The notes under the pieces were generated by a model that made no database searches, was not told the origin of the DNA, and saw only the letters and a list, made by a program, of their open reading frames with translations. The translations under genes were made by a program, and so were the position numbers. Below, one piece after another: positions 11,677 to 30,511 of a stretch of DNA of 64,000 nucleotides. The DNA comes from Emticicia sp. C21 (GTDB taxonomy: Bacteria > Bacteroidota > Bacteroidia > Cytophagales > Spirosomataceae). Location of the stretch: positions 62,001-126,000 of the forward strand of contig NZ_QVMT01000012.1 of the NCBI RefSeq assembly GCF_003418935.1. Direction: 5' to 3'. The first letter of the stretch is position 1. Every line of letters begins with the position of its first letter.

Positions 11677-12537
11677 TTACAATTTTCTTTTCTTTAATGA
11701 ATCCGTAATCACCCTTGCAATGGGTTCATTGAGTGTGATTCTGATTAAATTTACATTTGGTATCTGCAGTGCCTCTTCCAGATTATTAAGGTAGGCTTGA
11801 GCTGCCGATTTAAACTCATCTTTAATCGTCTCTGCTTGTAATTCTATTTCTTTTTGTGTTTCTAAGTCTTTAAAACGATAAAAACCCTTCAAATCAAAAT
11901 TTACTTCGTCTTCACCTAAGACCTGAAAAATCACAATGTCCCGTCTTGGATTAGCGATATTCTTAATCAACTTTAGCCATTCGTCATCTGCCTGCAAAAA
12001 ATCAGATGCCAATACAATCAGTTCTTTTTGCTTTTGTTGAAACTCAGGGAATTTAGGATTGCTGTTTTTCCATTGCTCACTTGCTTCAGCTTTTTCCAGT
12101 GAATATAAAATGCGTTGAAATGATTGCTTGCCAAAGGGCACTAATGTCTGCAAATCACCATTTTGTAAGGTATACAAACTCATCTGGTCACTTTGGCGAT
12201 ATCCTAAATAAGCTAAGGATGCCAAAAGGATTTTGCAGTATTGTAGACGACTTATCGCTTTCTCCTGATAATTCATAGAACCTGATAAATCTAAAACAAA
12301 ACGGATATGGAGGTTGCTTTCAGTAGACGATTCCCGAACCAGATGTTTTTGTGTACGGGCATAGAGTTTCCAGTCAATTCTTTTGGGGTCGTCTCCCGGT
12401 TCGTAGTGCCTATATTGCTCAAATTCTGTTCCGATCCCCGAACGCTTGCTGCCATGAATTCCCAGCATGACTTCTTCACTAACCAATCGCCCAGCCAGTT
12501 GCAGATTATTTAATTTAATGAGTTCGGTAGTGAGCAT
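11677..12537 (-). CDS. DUF58 domain protein (MoxR partner)
   Basis: 286 residues. It contains the DUF58 signature: the block GIGTEFEQYRHYEPGDDPKRIDW around residues 35-57, then RFVLDLSGSMNY, a von Willebrand-like MIDAS motif (DxSxS). DUF58 proteins are encoded with MoxR AAA+ ATPases and BatA-type membrane proteins, and are thought to act as the adaptor between them. Here the usual direct moxR-DUF58 linkage is broken by an inserted HUH transposase gene and REP-like repeats. Spacing to the BatA-like gene is three bases. Confidence 0.85.
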   Translation of the reverse strand: MLTTELIKLNNLQLAGRLVSEEVMLGIHGSKRSGIGTEFEQYRHYEPGDDPKRIDWKLYARTQKHLVRESSTESNLHIRFVLDLSGSMNYQEKAISRLQYCKILLASLAYLGYRQSDQMSLYTLQNGDLQTLVPFGKQSFQRILYSLEKAEASEQWKNSNPKFPEFQQKQKELIVLASDFLQADDEWLKLIKNIANPRRDIVIFQVLGEDEVNFDLKGFYRFKDLETQKEIELQAETIKDEFKSAAQAYLNNLEEALQIPNVNLIRITLNEPIARVITDSLKKRKL

Positions 12538-12554
12538 TAATGAGTTTTTATTAC

Positions 12555-13016
12555 TTAAACCAGTTCTTTAAAAATGTACTTTTCATCATATTCCACCTCA
12601 AATTTTTCTAGAAAACACAGGTATTCTTCTCTGAAAGTCCTATTCCGATGATGTTCTTCCTGGTTTTCAATATATTTGATTACGTCTTTTATTTGAGATT
12701 TCCCATAAGAAAAAACGCCATATCCTTCTTGCCATTCAAATTTTCCTCTTACTAATTTCCTCTTGTTAATCCATGTTGATGAATTGCCTTTTATGTCTTG
12801 TAATAAATCAGCAATTGATTGTGTCGGATGCATTCCTATCAAAATATGTAAGTGGTCAGGCATTCCGTTGATAATGATTAATTTGTGCTTTCGTTCCTGT
12901 ACTATTCCTGTGATGTATTTATAAAGCTCATCTTTCCAAGAGATTTGAATAAGCCCATCCCGATATTTTACGGCAAATATTATATGCAAATGAATTTGAG
13001 TATAAGTATTTGCCAT
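12555..13016 (-). CDS. IS200-like HUH transposase, probable REP-associated tyrosine transposase (RAYT)
   Basis: 153 residues of the Y1 transposase fold: N-terminal strand ending FAVKYR, HUH motif in MPDHLHILIG (His55, His57), EWQEGYGVFSYGKSQ, and helix KYIENQ holding the likely nucleophile Tyr114 with Gln118 four residues on. The length equals a single-domain TnpA. There is no accessory TnpB. On the promoter side lie five REP-like palindromes; no such element lies downstream. A matching palindrome cluster stands alone 5 kb away. That arrangement, a solitary gene next to dispersed REPs, points to a RAYT rather than an active IS200. The gene sits between MoxR and DUF58 genes, same strand. Confidence 0.8.
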   Translation of the reverse strand: MANTYTQIHLHIIFAVKYRDGLIQISWKDELYKYITGIVQERKHKLIIINGMPDHLHILIGMHPTQSIADLLQDIKGNSSTWINKRKLVRGKFEWQEGYGVFSYGKSQIKDVIKYIENQEEHHRNRTFREEYLCFLEKFEVEYDEKYIFKELV

Positions 13017-13051
13017 AATATAAATATGAGTAAGTTTTAACTTTTGATTTT

Positions 13052-13272
13052 AGTCCCGTAGGGACGATATATCGGTAGAAAATATTGTACTTCTCAAGAT
13101 TTCAAGTCCCGTAGGGACGGTATATTAAACTAATTGTCGAATTATTAATATATCATCCCTACGGGATACCCAATCGCACTCATTATCTTTTCCTACCGAT
13201 ATATCGTCCCTACGGGACTTAGAACCTTTAAGTGCTGGTTTCTTTCTACCGATATATTATCCCTACGGGATA
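13052..13272. repeat. REP-like palindrome cluster beside the RAYT gene (five units)
   Basis: The core word is TCCCGTAGGGAC, itself a short palindrome, extended by GATATATCGGTAGAAA. Units: forward at 13052-13081 and 13105-13127, inverted at 13148-13168, 13192-13220 and 13243-13272. The outer pair (13052-13081 with 13192-13220) share the GGTAGAAA-type end and the inner pair end in TATTAA-type sequence, so the first four form nested hairpins. The fifth unit is an additional outer-type copy. The cluster fills the space between moxR and the transposase gene. Confidence 0.85.
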
Positions 13273-13297
13273 TTTTGCCCATTTATTATAAATCTCC

Positions 13298-14278
13298 TTA
13301 CTTGCTCTTCAACAATTCCCCAATCACATCATCCGTGGTAATATTCTCAGCCTCAGCACGGAAATTCAATGCTATTCTATGGCGTAATACCGGATAAGCT
13401 AAAGTCTCAATATCTTCCGGAATTACCGAAAAACGTTCGTTCAATACAGCTCTTGCTTTTGAGCAGAGAATCAAAGCTTGCCCGGCGCGTGGCCCTGCAC
13501 CCCAATTGCACCATTGTTTTACGAAGGCAGAGTTACTATTAGCCGGACGGGTATTTCTTACCAAAGAATTCACTCTAGAAATTAACTCGTCGCTGATATG
13601 AACTTGTCGGGTTAATTTCTGTAGGTCAATAATTTCTTTGTCGGTCAATACTGTCTGCAAGGTTTGTTTGCTAATACCTGTAGTACTCTTCAGAACATTT
13701 AATTCTTCTTGCTCTGACGGATAGCCTAATTTGATATATAATAAGAAACGGTCTAATTGGGCTTCGGGTAATGGATACGTACCTGCTTGCTCAATAGGAT
13801 TTTGCGTAGCAATAATCAGAAAGGGTAGGGGTAAATCATAATTCGTACCTGCATAAGTAACTTTATACTCCTGCATGGCCTCTAATAAAGCTGCTTGTGT
13901 TTTAGGAGGCGTACGGTTAATCTCATCAGCCAGAACTATATTGGCAAAGATTGGCCCCTGGTTAAACTTGAAAAACTTCTTGCCTGTTTCATGGTCTTCT
14001 TCCAGAATCTCGGTGCCTATAATATCGCCGGGCATTAAATCGGGTGTAAACTGCACACGTTTAAATTTCATCTCAAGGGCTTCTGACATGGTTTTTACCA
14101 TTAATGTTTTAGCCAGTCCGGGTACACCTTCCAGCAAACAATGTCCACCTGCCAACAGACTGATTAATATCTCATTGATAGCCTCCTGCTGACCAACAAT
14201 GACCTTACCGATTTCTTTTTTTAAGTGTGGTAATTTAGCTACCAGTAATTTATAGTGGGTTAATGCTTGTGTTTCCAA
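13298..14278 (-). CDS. moxR: MoxR-family AAA+ ATPase
   Basis: 326 residues, complete. Walker A GVPGLAKT (around residue 50), Walker [21 protein letters not shown], sensor region [22 protein letters not shown] and C-terminal AAA lid with GAGPRAGQ are all present. MoxR ATPases act as chaperones with DUF58 and BatA-type proteins encoded nearby; that set lies downstream on the same strand, though an IS200-like gene and repeats intervene. It follows the DUF4159 gene by three bases. The whole gene appears intact. Confidence 0.92.
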
Positions 14279-14920: not shown

Positions 14921-14950
14921 TTTTCTTTGGTGTTTTGGAGAATTGGGTTT

Positions 14951-15023
14951 GGAGAAAGGAGAATGGAACAAAAAGAAGGTAATAATTTCTTCTCCATCAT
15001 GCTTGTTCCATTCTCCTTTCTCC
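14951..15023. repeat. Palindrome of the GGAGAATGGAA family, copy 1
   Basis: A perfect 21-base inverted repeat: left arm 14951-14971 (begins GGAGAAAGGAGAATGG), right arm 15003-15023, loop 31 bases. It lies between the TldE-like gene and the DUF4159 gene and overlaps the 5' end of the longest DUF4159 reading frame. Related sequence occurs at 16393-16490 and 50270-50371. Confidence 0.85.
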
Positions 15024-15036
15024 TTTCTCCGACTAA

Positions 15037-18388: not shown

Positions 18389-18551
18389 AGCCCCGTTAGG
18401 GACGGTATATTGGTAGAAATATTGAATATGAGGAGTATTAAGTCCTGTAGGGACGATATATTAAAATCGACGAATAATAATATATTATCCCTGCGGGATA
18501 CAAAGCATAATTCCCTTGTTTTTTCTACCGATATATCATCCCTACGGGATT
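18389..18551. repeat. REP-like nested palindrome cluster, distal copy (four units)
   Basis: Four units related to those at 13052-13272, in the same order and orientation: outer forward 18389-18420 (ends GGTAGAAAT), inner forward 18440-18466, inner inverted 18476-18500, outer inverted 18522-18551 (begins TTTCTACCGATATATC). Each has TCCC-N3-GGGA or a one-base variant. The order F1-F2-R2-R1 gives nested hairpins. It lies between the two TldD/TldE pairs with no transposase gene next to it, as expected of a non-autonomous element. The flanking 18142-18388 shows nothing else I can name. Confidence 0.85.
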
Positions 18552-27637: not shown

Positions 27638-30511
27638 ATGAAAATCAATCTCAATACTCAAGAATCCTTTGAAAGCCGACATCAAGGCAAAAGCGAACAT
27701 GATTTACAGGCAATGTTGAAAACCATCGGCGCCGATTCGCTTGACACACTCATCAATCAAACAGTTCCGGAACAGATTCGTCTGCAAACTCCTTTAAACC
27801 TGCCTGCGGCTAAATCAGAAGCTGACTTCTTAGCCGATTTTAAAGTGCTGGCACAAAAAAATAAGATTTTTAAATCATATATCGGTACCGGATATTATGA
27901 TACCATAGTACCAAATGTTATTCTAAGAAATATTCTAGAAAACCCTTCGTGGTACACAGCTTATACACCATATCAGGCCGAGATTGCTCAAGGCCGCTTA
28001 GAAATGCTTCTGAATTTCCAGACCATGGTCATCGACCTGACAGGTATGGAAATTGCTAACGCTTCATTACTAGATGAAGGAACAGCGGCAGCAGAAGCCC
28101 TGACGATGTTGCACAATATCCGTCCGGCTGCGAAGAAAAACGCTAATACTTTCTTTATATCAGAGCTTTGTCACCCTCAAACCATTGATGTGGTATTGGG
28201 TCGTGCAAAACCGCTGGGTATTACAGTTGTGGTAGGCAACCATGAAACTTTCGACCTGACACAGGAAGATGTGTATGGGGTTTTATTACAATATCCGGCT
28301 ACAAACGGAGAGGTTTATGATTATACTGATTTAATCACCTCAGCACATGAATTGAATGTAACAGTAGCCGTGGCAGCTGATTTATTGGCATTGACCTTAT
28401 TGACTCCTCCAGGCGAAATGGGTGCTGATGTGGTTGTAGGTTCTGCGCAACGTTTAGGTGTACCTATGGGATATGGTGGCCCTCATGCTGCTTATTTTGC
28501 AACGAAAGATGCCTTTAAACGTCAGATTCCAGGGCGTATCATTGGGGTATCAATAGACGCACAAGGTAATCGTGCTTTGCGTATGGCTTTACAAACCCGT
28601 GAGCAACATATCCGTCGCGAAAAAGCTACTTCTAATATCTGTACTGCTCAGGTACTACTATCGGTAATGGCAGCAGCTTATGGTATCTATCATGGACCAC
28701 AAGGCTTGAAAAATATAGCGGCTAAAGTACATGGTTTAACCAGACTATTTGCTGAATCAGTAGAAGGTCTGGATTATCAGTTATTGACACATAATTATTT
28801 CGATACCGTTACACTTCATACAGAAGATAGCACTGCTCTTCGTGCAATTGCCGAAGCAAAAGGGGTAAACTTCAGATACCTTGAACAAGGTAATGTAAGT
28901 ATCTCTTTCGACGAAACCAAGACCTTAGCTGATGTAGAAGAATTGCTGAGCATCTTCGCAGAAGCTAGTGGCAAAGAAGCAAAAATCAACCTGAAAAATG
29001 AGATTGATATTGTTTTTGCGCCGAGCCTGAATCGTACGTCAACATACATGACGCATCCGGTGTTCAGTTCTTATCATACCGAGCATGAGATGTTGCGTTA
29101 CCTGAAATCTTTGGAAAACAAAGATTTGTCTTTAGTGCATTCAATGATTTCTTTGGGTAGCTGTACCATGAAACTCAATGCCACTGCCGAGATGATTCCG
29201 GTTACATGGCCTGAGTTTGGTAAGATACACCCATTTGCCCCTCAGGAACAAACACAAGGTTATCAACAACTATTTCAGGAATTGAACGATTGGTTATGCG
29301 CTATTACAGGTTTCGCCAGAATGTCGTTGCAACCAAACTCAGGTGCACAGGGCGAATATGCAGGCTTAATGGTTATCAGAGCCTATCACGAAAGCCGTGA
29401 AGAAGGACACCGTAATATTGCCTTGATACCATCTTCGGCACACGGTACCAACCCTGCATCAGCTGTGATGGCAGGTATGCAGGTGATTGTAACCAAATGT
29501 GATGAAAGAGGTAATATTGATGTAGAAGACCTAAAAGCGAAAGCTGAACAATATGCCGACAGACTTTCTTGTCTGATGGCGACCTATCCATCAACGCATG
29601 GTGTTTTTGAAGAATCAATCAAAGAAATCTGTGAGATTATCCATCAAAATGGTGGGCAGGTATATATGGATGGTGCCAATATGAATGCGCAGGTAGGTTT
29701 AACCTCTCCAGCATCTATTGGTGCGGACGTTTGCCACCTGAATCTTCATAAAACATTTTGTATCCCTCATGGTGGAGGTGGCCCGGGAATGGGGCCAATC
29801 GGAGTAGCGCAACACTTAGTACCTTTCTTACCAAACCATAAAGTAGTGCCTGTTTCGGGTTATGATGGTGTACATGCTATCTCGGCAGGACCTTATGGTA
29901 GTGCCAGTATCCTGACTATCTCTTATGCATATATTGCTATGATGGGTGGTGAAGGTGTAACGAATGCTACCAAATACGCTATTCTCAATGCCAACTATAT
30001 CAAGGCTCGTCTGGAAGAGAAATATCAGATTTTGTATACGGGTAGCAATGGCCGTTGTGCGCACGAAATGATTGTTGACTTACGTCCGTTCAAATCATCG
30101 GCAGGAGTAGAGGCGGAAGATGTAGCCAAACGTTTAATGGACTACAACTTCCATGCACCAACTTTGTCGTTCCCAGTTGCAGGAACTTTGATGATTGAGC
30201 CAACAGAATCAGAATCAAAAGCAGAGCTTGACCGTTTCTGTGATGCTTTGTTAAACATCAGAGAAGAAATCAGTGAGGTAGAAGCAGGCAATGCCGATAA
30301 AGCCAATAACGTATTGAAAAATGCACCACACACGGCGGCAGTAGTATTAGCCGAAAACTGGGACAAACAATACACCAGAGAGAAAGCGGCTTTCCCGTTA
30401 CCATACGTAAAAGCCAACAAATTCTGGGCAACCGTAAGCCGTATTGACTCTGCATATGGAGATAGAAATTTAGTGTGTGCTTGCCCTCCGGTTGAGGAAT
30501 ATGAAGGGTGA
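27638..30511 (+). CDS. gcvP: Glycine dehydrogenase (decarboxylating), P protein of the glycine cleavage system
   Basis: 957 residues, the usual length of the single-chain P protein. PLP enzyme that decarboxylates glycine and transfers the aminomethyl group to lipoylated GcvH. Visible marks: [37 protein letters not shown] and [10 protein letters not shown] in the N-terminal half; [44 protein letters not shown] and the PLP lysine segment [18 protein letters not shown] in the C-terminal half. It stands alone; gcvH and gcvT are not in the window. A terminator follows 29 bases after the stop. Confidence 0.97.

Follow-up and report, generated by a model that had tools for sequence, protein, structure and literature searches.

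A single-copy IS200-like HUH-Y1 transposase of Emticicia sp. C21 and its dispersed four-hairpin repeats: a putative REP/transposase couple in TnpAY1 subclass 1.2

A single-copy HUH-Y1 transposase gene of Emticicia sp. C21 lies beside a group of short hairpins that recur throughout the genome, and we propose that gene and hairpins probably form a REP/transposase couple in which a class-1 (subclass 1.2) transposase mobilizes its repeats in trans. Directly observed are the dispersal of the repeats, the single copy of the gene, the association of such hairpins with homologous genes, the private stems, a GTAG rule and the variation in presence and absence among relatives. The system works like RAYT-REPIN but lacks two defining features of that family, and it points to a REP/transposase couple of a kind undescribed for subclass 1.2 and to an overlooked repeat-spreading system.

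The window, which is the whole stretch of 64,000 nt that was analysed, corresponds to C4:62001-126000 of the source genome G000 (6.64 Mb in 33 contigs). It contains the exact core TCCCGTAGGGA at 13054 and 13107 on the plus strand and at 13156, 13207 and 13260 on the minus strand; with at most one mismatch, eight matches are found in the window, vs. a mean of 0.31 and a maximum of 2 in 100 shuffles. The five units, two forward and three inverted, that a prior sequence-only reading had described are present at 13053-13271 with the tails given there, the outer elements ending in GGTAGAAA and the inner ones in TATTAA. As single-stranded DNA, the region 13040-13280 is predicted to fold into nested hairpins at -54.2 kcal/mol, compared with -19.5 +/- 3.2 kcal/mol for shuffles (z = -10.9; 0 of 200 as good). 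The first hairpin is located 36 nt upstream of the start of the Y1 gene, which is on the minus strand, and no element copy is found at the 3' side of this gene within the window. The features are as follows.

12555..13016, minus strand: Y1/HUH single-strand transposase of 153 aa, with DHLH at H55/H57, WQ at 95-96 and YIENQEEHH with Y115
13053..13081, plus strand: F1, type-1 element; hairpin 13053-13065, 9-nt spacer, GTAG 13075-13078, AAA
13106..13128, plus strand: F2, type-2 element; hairpin 13106-13118, then the tail TATATTAA
13145..13167, minus strand: R2, inverted type-2 element; hairpin 13155-13167
13190..13218, minus strand: R1, inverted type-1 element; CTAC 13193-13196, hairpin 13206-13218
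13243..13271, minus strand: R1', extra inverted type-1 (outer-type) element; CTAC 13246-13249, hairpin 13259-13271
12538..13297, no strand: gene-plus-repeat module, between a DUF58 gene (11677-12537) and a MoxR-type ATPase gene (13298-14278)
18391..18549, no strand: second four-hairpin unit, F1-F2-R2-R1, whose F1 core is diverged (loop GTTA); the orthologous place in G008 also has a unit

At a permissive threshold, Rfam gave no match to the four-hairpin unit. Its microRNA matches in the window fall on unrelated palindromes near 15000 and 16400; a long near-perfect intergenic palindrome at 14940-15035 (z = -5.3 as single-stranded DNA), which is unrelated to the repeats, is the source of spurious matches of this kind.

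The window protein matches Pfam Y1_Tnp with 107 bits and the NCBIfam IS200 model with 83.8 bits (cut-off 55), while its score for REP_Tyr_transpos (NF047646) is 29.6 bits, below the cut-off of 80. Its AlphaFold model (pLDDT 91.3) is predicted to have the HUH-Y1 fold of IS200/IS605 transposases, and the top Foldseek matches of the model are ISDra2 (2xo6, E 5e-10) and IS608 TnpA, with the REP transposase 4er8 at rank 30. D54, H55, H57, Q96, Y115, Q119, H122 and H123 are invariant among 27 aligned homologues. The sequence-only reading had named H55/H57 correctly, but the tyrosine that it placed at 114 is Y115, the invariant tyrosine of YIENQ. Judged by sequence, the Y---Q--HH signature assigns the protein to TnpAY1 subclass 1.2 (class 1), which is IS200-like; DHxH, WQ, a length of about 148 aa and a low copy number, all features of this subclass, are found as well; the published hydrophobic residue of HuH is I or V, and the window protein has L. 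Membership in RAYT/TnpAREP (class 2) was considered and rejected because the Tyr motif is not Y---NP and the score for the REP-associated transposase model is below its cut-off. Membership in the IS200/IS605 insertion sequences was likewise rejected, as copy number is against it: there is no near-identical multi-copy element, and hairpin ends are not found on both sides of the gene. The transposase is single-copy, as had been expected from the sequence, and the next best Y1 protein of the same genome is 36-37% identical. Other Y1 loci fetched from this genome are L003 (C12:678451), L004 (C23:429385), L005 (C23:437104) and L002 (C23:461919). Of the four proteins encoded there, three have class-2-like Y..NP motifs and one is again of the Y---Q--HH type; the exact TCCCGTAGGGA core is absent from these four loci.

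Genome-wide, which was the count that the sequence-only reading had proposed as a check on dispersal, the exact core is found in 98 copies at 36 places, rather than at two places only, and the reversed control is found 0 times. Thirty-four of the 36 places hold three to five elements and two hold a lone core. The four-part unit, held to be more complex than a REP doublet, is real: the order F1-F2-R2-R1 (form A) is found at 14 places. Beyond what could be seen in the window, another 20 units have the order R2-R1-F1-F2 (form B), a circular permutation of form A; the two forms were sorted by hand from the sequences, and automatic labels differ at a few diverged elements. With dispersal, single copy and four-part unit, much of the suggested Bacteroidota counterpart of RAYT-REPIN holds, and the part that fails is the family of the protein, which is not RAYT/TnpAREP by its profile scores (IS200 vs. 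REP_Tyr_transpos), its Y---Q--HH signature and a GTAG that lies 9 nt 3' of the hairpin.

The consensus of type-1 elements is mostly [A/G]TCCCGTAGGGA[T/C]GATATATCGGTAGAAA and that of type-2 elements mostly [A/G]TCCCGTAGGGA[T/C]GATATATTAA. From a type-1 core to the type-2 core that follows, 48 of 52 spacings measure 49-53 nt; the other four, which contain a GC-rich insert, measure 65-67 nt. Inserts of the same kind, with GCGGCCGC, are found between TATATCGG and TAG in the type-1 tails of L018, L023, L026 and L033, and are possibly a nested hairpin or a small element. Type-1 elements have a pairwise identity of 0.865, compared with 0.346 for a sample of 15 nt of the spacers, for which random expectation is 0.326. 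The outermost stem pair covaries between A-T and G-C (127 of 139 paired; shuffles: mean 95.9, maximum 105); this joint switching argues that the hairpin itself is under constraint. A form-B subfamily (L020, L029, L031, L038 and L040) is marked by a variant core (loop AGA) in one of the inner elements and, in most members, by a short centre, which suggests the spread of whole units.

To survey homologues, we used 69 distinct loci of 93 matches listed, from which weak, partial and some other matches had been left out, together with 80 named loci, the best 80 of at least 582; nine loci whose protein is >90% identical to another were dropped (one of them, L090, is the same place as L070), giving 141 non-redundant loci. 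Among the best 80 of at least 582 named homologues, the nearest is from an Emticicia MAG (75%). A short hairpin repeated within 500 nt of the gene is found at 92 of the 141 loci, with three or more copies at 50; the criterion was an identical word occurring at least twice, by which diverged repeats are missed, and 49 of the 141 loci have no exactly repeated hairpin in this range. Among the 77 loci with full distal flanks, such a hairpin is near the gene at 59 and at 1000-1500 nt at one. The shuffle control gave 0 of 1500, in a run made before the nine loci were dropped. An earlier criterion, with 1000-nt flanks and self-complementary words counted twice, was less clean, as shuffles often reached two copies, and the pattern CACCCCTTCGGGGTG, an over-extended hairpin word, had no matches and counts neither way.

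The stems vary by gene (GTCCC, GCTTC, ACCCC, GTCGC, GTTCC and others), and stem similarity correlates with protein similarity (Mantel r = 0.563 for 92 loci and 0.410 for the 77 closer loci; 0 of 2000 permutations each), a correlation that could also be expected from plain vertical co-inheritance. GTAG starts 8-10 nt 3' of the hairpin at 41 of the 92 loci, and exactly at 9 nt at 34 of them; other 3-nt windows have a mean of 3.1. When the stems are trimmed to 5 bp, GTAG is at 9 nt in 38 of the 41, and the consensus reads stem-loop-stem-NNNATNTNGGTAGNA. At the other 51 of the 92 hairpin-bearing loci GTAG is missing at 8-10 nt. All 41 cases of this N9-GTAG rule are among the 77 closer loci, and none of the 15 distant loci has it, although the WQ motif, which in TnpAREP is linked to the reading of GTAG, is also found in distant homologues without the rule. 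Homologues that are <42% identical (e.g., L070, L086, L093, L095 and L105) have repeated hairpins (GCCCTGAAAGGGC, CCAGCTAAAGCTGG) without GTAG at 9 nt, and this distant clade may use a signal other than GTAG.

Homologues are found in 40 of 58 genomes, including G000. Across the 58 genomes, the core is counted 98 times in G000, 69 in G008, 40 in G002, 26 in G001, 16 in G049, 15 in G003, 12 in G018, 11 in G031 and at most eight times in the others, and the control pattern 0-4 times. G000, G008 and G002 are the three genomes whose proteins are 86-100% identical. Among the 57 relatives, with G000 left out, the copy number of the core tends to be higher where the best homologue is more identical (Spearman 0.46, p 3e-4); the control pattern gives -0.06. 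Ten or more cores are found in six of the 12 genomes whose protein reaches at least 57% identity vs. one of the 45 others (Fisher 1.6e-4), a cut-off that was chosen after the table had been seen, with inputs transcribed by hand; the remaining six of the 12 have <10 cores of the TCCCGTAGGGA type. G001 is the exception, with 26 cores and no close homologue. A second hairpin word, GCTTCGGAGAAGC, taken from the genes of G013 and G021, is found 18 times in G021 (eight at the gene), five times in G013 (four at the gene) and once or twice in seven other genomes, and never in 49; away from the gene locus, it is therefore dispersed in G021 and hardly so in G013.

In G000, G002 and G008, gene and repeats lie between the MoxR-type ATPase and DUF58 genes. 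The module is absent from the congeners G001 and G003, in which these two genes are about 4-9 nt apart. Tandem units adjoin the module in relatives. In G002 there are five next to the gene, each of about 202 nt, and in G008 each of two contig ends, which possibly overlap, carries five to six of 201 nt. One period of the array, cut at the F2/R2 (TTAA) centre, has the element order of form B.

For at least 10 of the 36 places in G000, including one lone core, G001 or G008 also carries a core at the orthologous position, the gene's own locus not being counted; this count is a lower bound, as only core-bearing places were fetched. The form-A units L034 and L036 match a single hairpin in G001. In G001 and G008, the gaps orthologous to the units L018, L022 and L011 do not hold these units; the three were chosen among units without a core-bearing orthologue and are no random sample. 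At L018 the difference is clean and spans about 300 bp, and the presence of ACATTGT on either edge suggests that a target was duplicated or that a deletion left a scar, whereas insertion of the IS200 type is not known to duplicate its target. Judged from these comparisons, the repeat family is partly old and partly variable, gain and loss being indistinguishable at each site. Among genomes that have the gene, no more than one element is present at 2 of 36 places in G000, 5 of 21 in G008 and 0 of 23 in G002; in G001, which lacks it, the figure is 5 of 15. Decay of the units after gene loss in G001 was considered, and no clear decay is seen in this share.

A second family of repeats, bounded by GTAG on one side and CTAC on the opposite one (GTAGAGACG...CGTCTCTAC), is found at L011:3533-3667, L026:1-134 and L038:264-291, with one arm at 30107 of the window, and resembles published double-foot REPs. 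Copies of this family occupy the gap of the G000 unit L022 in G001 and G008 (the right foot in G008 is imperfect), and the gaps orthologous to L011 in these two genomes are likewise sites of this family.

In the couple that we propose, a single-copy subclass 1.2 HUH-Y1 protein, kept at one place in three congeners, would recognize its own hairpin in single-stranded DNA via the gene-specific stem. The GTAG at a fixed 9 nt 3' of the hairpin would be read by the protein, perhaps as cut site or guide, in place of a right-end cut site, and the units would be moved or copied in trans. The spreading unit would consist of two half-units, each made up of hairpin-N9-GTAG, then about 22 nt of free sequence, then hairpin-TATTAA; they would be joined tail to tail in F1-F2-R2-R1 and head to head in R2-R1-F1-F2. 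Form B may be excised, by cutting at the TTAA centre, from a tandem array like the one that adjoins the gene in relatives. Binding, cleavage, strand choice and excision from arrays are steps that we infer. Several results weigh against the couple: the 49 loci that lack an exactly repeated hairpin, the 51 hairpin-bearing loci without GTAG at 8-10 nt, the failure of the N9-GTAG rule in distant homologues, the 26 cores of G001, the lack of clear decay there and the edges of L018. According to passages of PMC8266576, TnpAREP cuts single-stranded REPs with the assistance of GTAG, and the cut sites of IS200/IS605 enzymes are chosen through guide sequences that lie 5' of the hairpin. A bolder version, which we put forward tentatively, is that subclass 1.2 represents a third, independent route to REP-type repeats, with a private hairpin, GTAG 9 nt 3' of it and, in this genus, four-hairpin units whose form B arises via a circular intermediate or by being excised from a tandem array at its TTAA centre.

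The gene could instead encode an ordinary IS200/IS605 transposase, with the units as its MITEs or solo ends and the window as the remains of one insertion sequence. By profile and fold the protein comes nearest to IS200-type TnpA, each half-unit has two direct hairpins that look like a left end and a right end, and some relatives' genes (e.g., L055 and L065) have inverted hairpins on both sides. We nevertheless consider this unlikely, given that the window gene lacks an element copy at its 3' side and that proteins at different fetched places of one genome are at most 0.70 identical in the 20 scorable of 21 genomes with two or more such places, partial matches being left out; in the unscorable one, G050, the top pair is one place fetched twice. 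Such divergence is unlike an insertion sequence. In passages of the 2018 classification (PMC6006769), the subclass is also set apart from IS transposases by its low copy number and generally missing IS ends. The R2-R1-F1-F2 units might also be a MITE of their own, framed by terminal inverted repeats (about ACTCGTTGGGTGAAAT; the outer repeat is also written ACTCGTTGGGTG) and moved by another transposase, with the hairpins as passengers. The outer motif is found within five mismatches in 18 of 40 form-B arms (0.96 expected in shuffles) and in none of 28 form-A arms, and the extra stretch at L018 is longer than its hairpins and is bounded by a short direct repeat. The motif was, however, read from the tested arms, which makes the test partly circular, 22 of the 40 form-B arms do not match it and the internal order of these units is the same as in one period of the array next to the gene, so that we regard a separate MITE as quite improbable.

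The genomic setting of the units bears on a further possibility, namely that they are host intergenic elements (bidirectional terminators or mRNA-end hairpins) under selection and the transposase is a mere neighbour. By a crude ORF model, 31 of 34 units are intergenic, and the form-B units L020, L021 and L029 are covered by an ORF. By the same model, form A lies between convergent genes at 9 of 14 places and between same-direction genes at five, and form B between same-direction genes at 15 of 20, divergent genes at three and convergent genes at one, with one undetermined; the convergent context thus differs between the forms (9 of 14 vs. 1 of 19; Fisher p 4e-4 for 33 scorable units). This difference in orientation preference, which is not predicted by the couple model, favours host elements, as does the retention of the hairpins while the spacers are randomised. 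It is hard to reconcile with mere neighbourhood, however, that 92 of 141 homologues have gene-specific hairpins next to them, which are almost never seen at a distance of 1 kb, that tandem arrays adjoin the gene in G002 and G008, that some orthologous gaps lack a unit and that the unit has no Rfam match, and we hold host elements to be very improbable. The REP/transposase couple on a subclass 1.2 transposase is the reading that we prefer.

Subclass 1.2, which is mostly found in Bacteroidota and Cyanobacteria, had no reported substrate, and the present data propose one. A private hairpin followed by N9 and GTAG is a simple rule that predicts the substrate of many unstudied genes from their sequence alone, and dozens of natural stem/protein pairs are available for testing how such enzymes read hairpins. 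If the proposal is true, lone Y1 transposases paired with their own repeats exist outside class 2.

Palindromic repeats of Bacteroidota have been described before. In passages of Di Nocera et al. (2013; PMC3733652), CGTC repeats with 8-9 bp stems and 4-5 nt loops and no linked transposase are reported in Bacteroidetes, and GTAG repeats carry their tag at the 5' foot of the hairpin. The elements found here resemble these GTAG- and CGTC-tagged REPs in being short, intergenic palindromes that form dimers of opposite orientation. Membership in the CGTC-tagged group was considered, as the inverted element reads ATCGTCCC, and rejected because stem and loop size are against the rule published there. 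In passages of PMC12306157, palindrome counts for Bacteroidota are given and transposases go unmentioned. With IS200/IS605 elements such as IS608 and ISDra2, the system shares the fold, the active site and hairpins as recognition units, but near-identical amplified copies are not seen and the window gene is not surrounded by left and right ends.

The closest parallel in behaviour is the REPtron/RAYT system (TnpAREP, class 2; REPs, BIMEs and REPINs), in which a single-copy HUH-Y1 protein likewise lies beside hairpins that are dispersed between genes as inverted pairs and in tandem arrays; the repeat is private to each gene, GTAG is conserved and the Tyr is preceded by a WQ motif, for which passages of PMC6006769 name W94/Q95 of E. 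coli TnpAREP. As in RAYT-REP systems, the gene is single-copy and not amplified as an insertion sequence, and the flanking repeats are dispersed in inverted pairs. The protein differs in being of class 1 (Y---Q instead of Y---NP), and the unit differs in consisting of four hairpins in two permuted layouts. The stems are 5-6 bp and GTAG is 9 nt 3' of the hairpin, whereas canonical REPs have it 0-2 nt 5'; the elements thus lack the GTAG/GTGG 0-2 nt 5' of the hairpin foot and the basal stem of at least 7 nt that the rule in passages of PMC6006769 prescribes. The REP search described there, for GTAG or GTGG 0-2 nt 5' of a 7-20 nt stem, therefore excludes the elements found here; its use on subclass 1.2 is unstated in those passages. 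In the main texts of the open-access literature searched, no report of repeats for subclass 1.2 was found. The published subclass 1.2, as given in passages of Quentin et al. (2018; PMC6006769), is low-copy, generally without IS ends and listed as "no" for REP. The genes surveyed here agree with it in Y---Q--HH, DHxH, WQ, a length of about 150 aa, low copy number and occurrence in Bacteroidota, and differ from that entry in having repeated hairpins within 500 nt at 92 of 141 loci.
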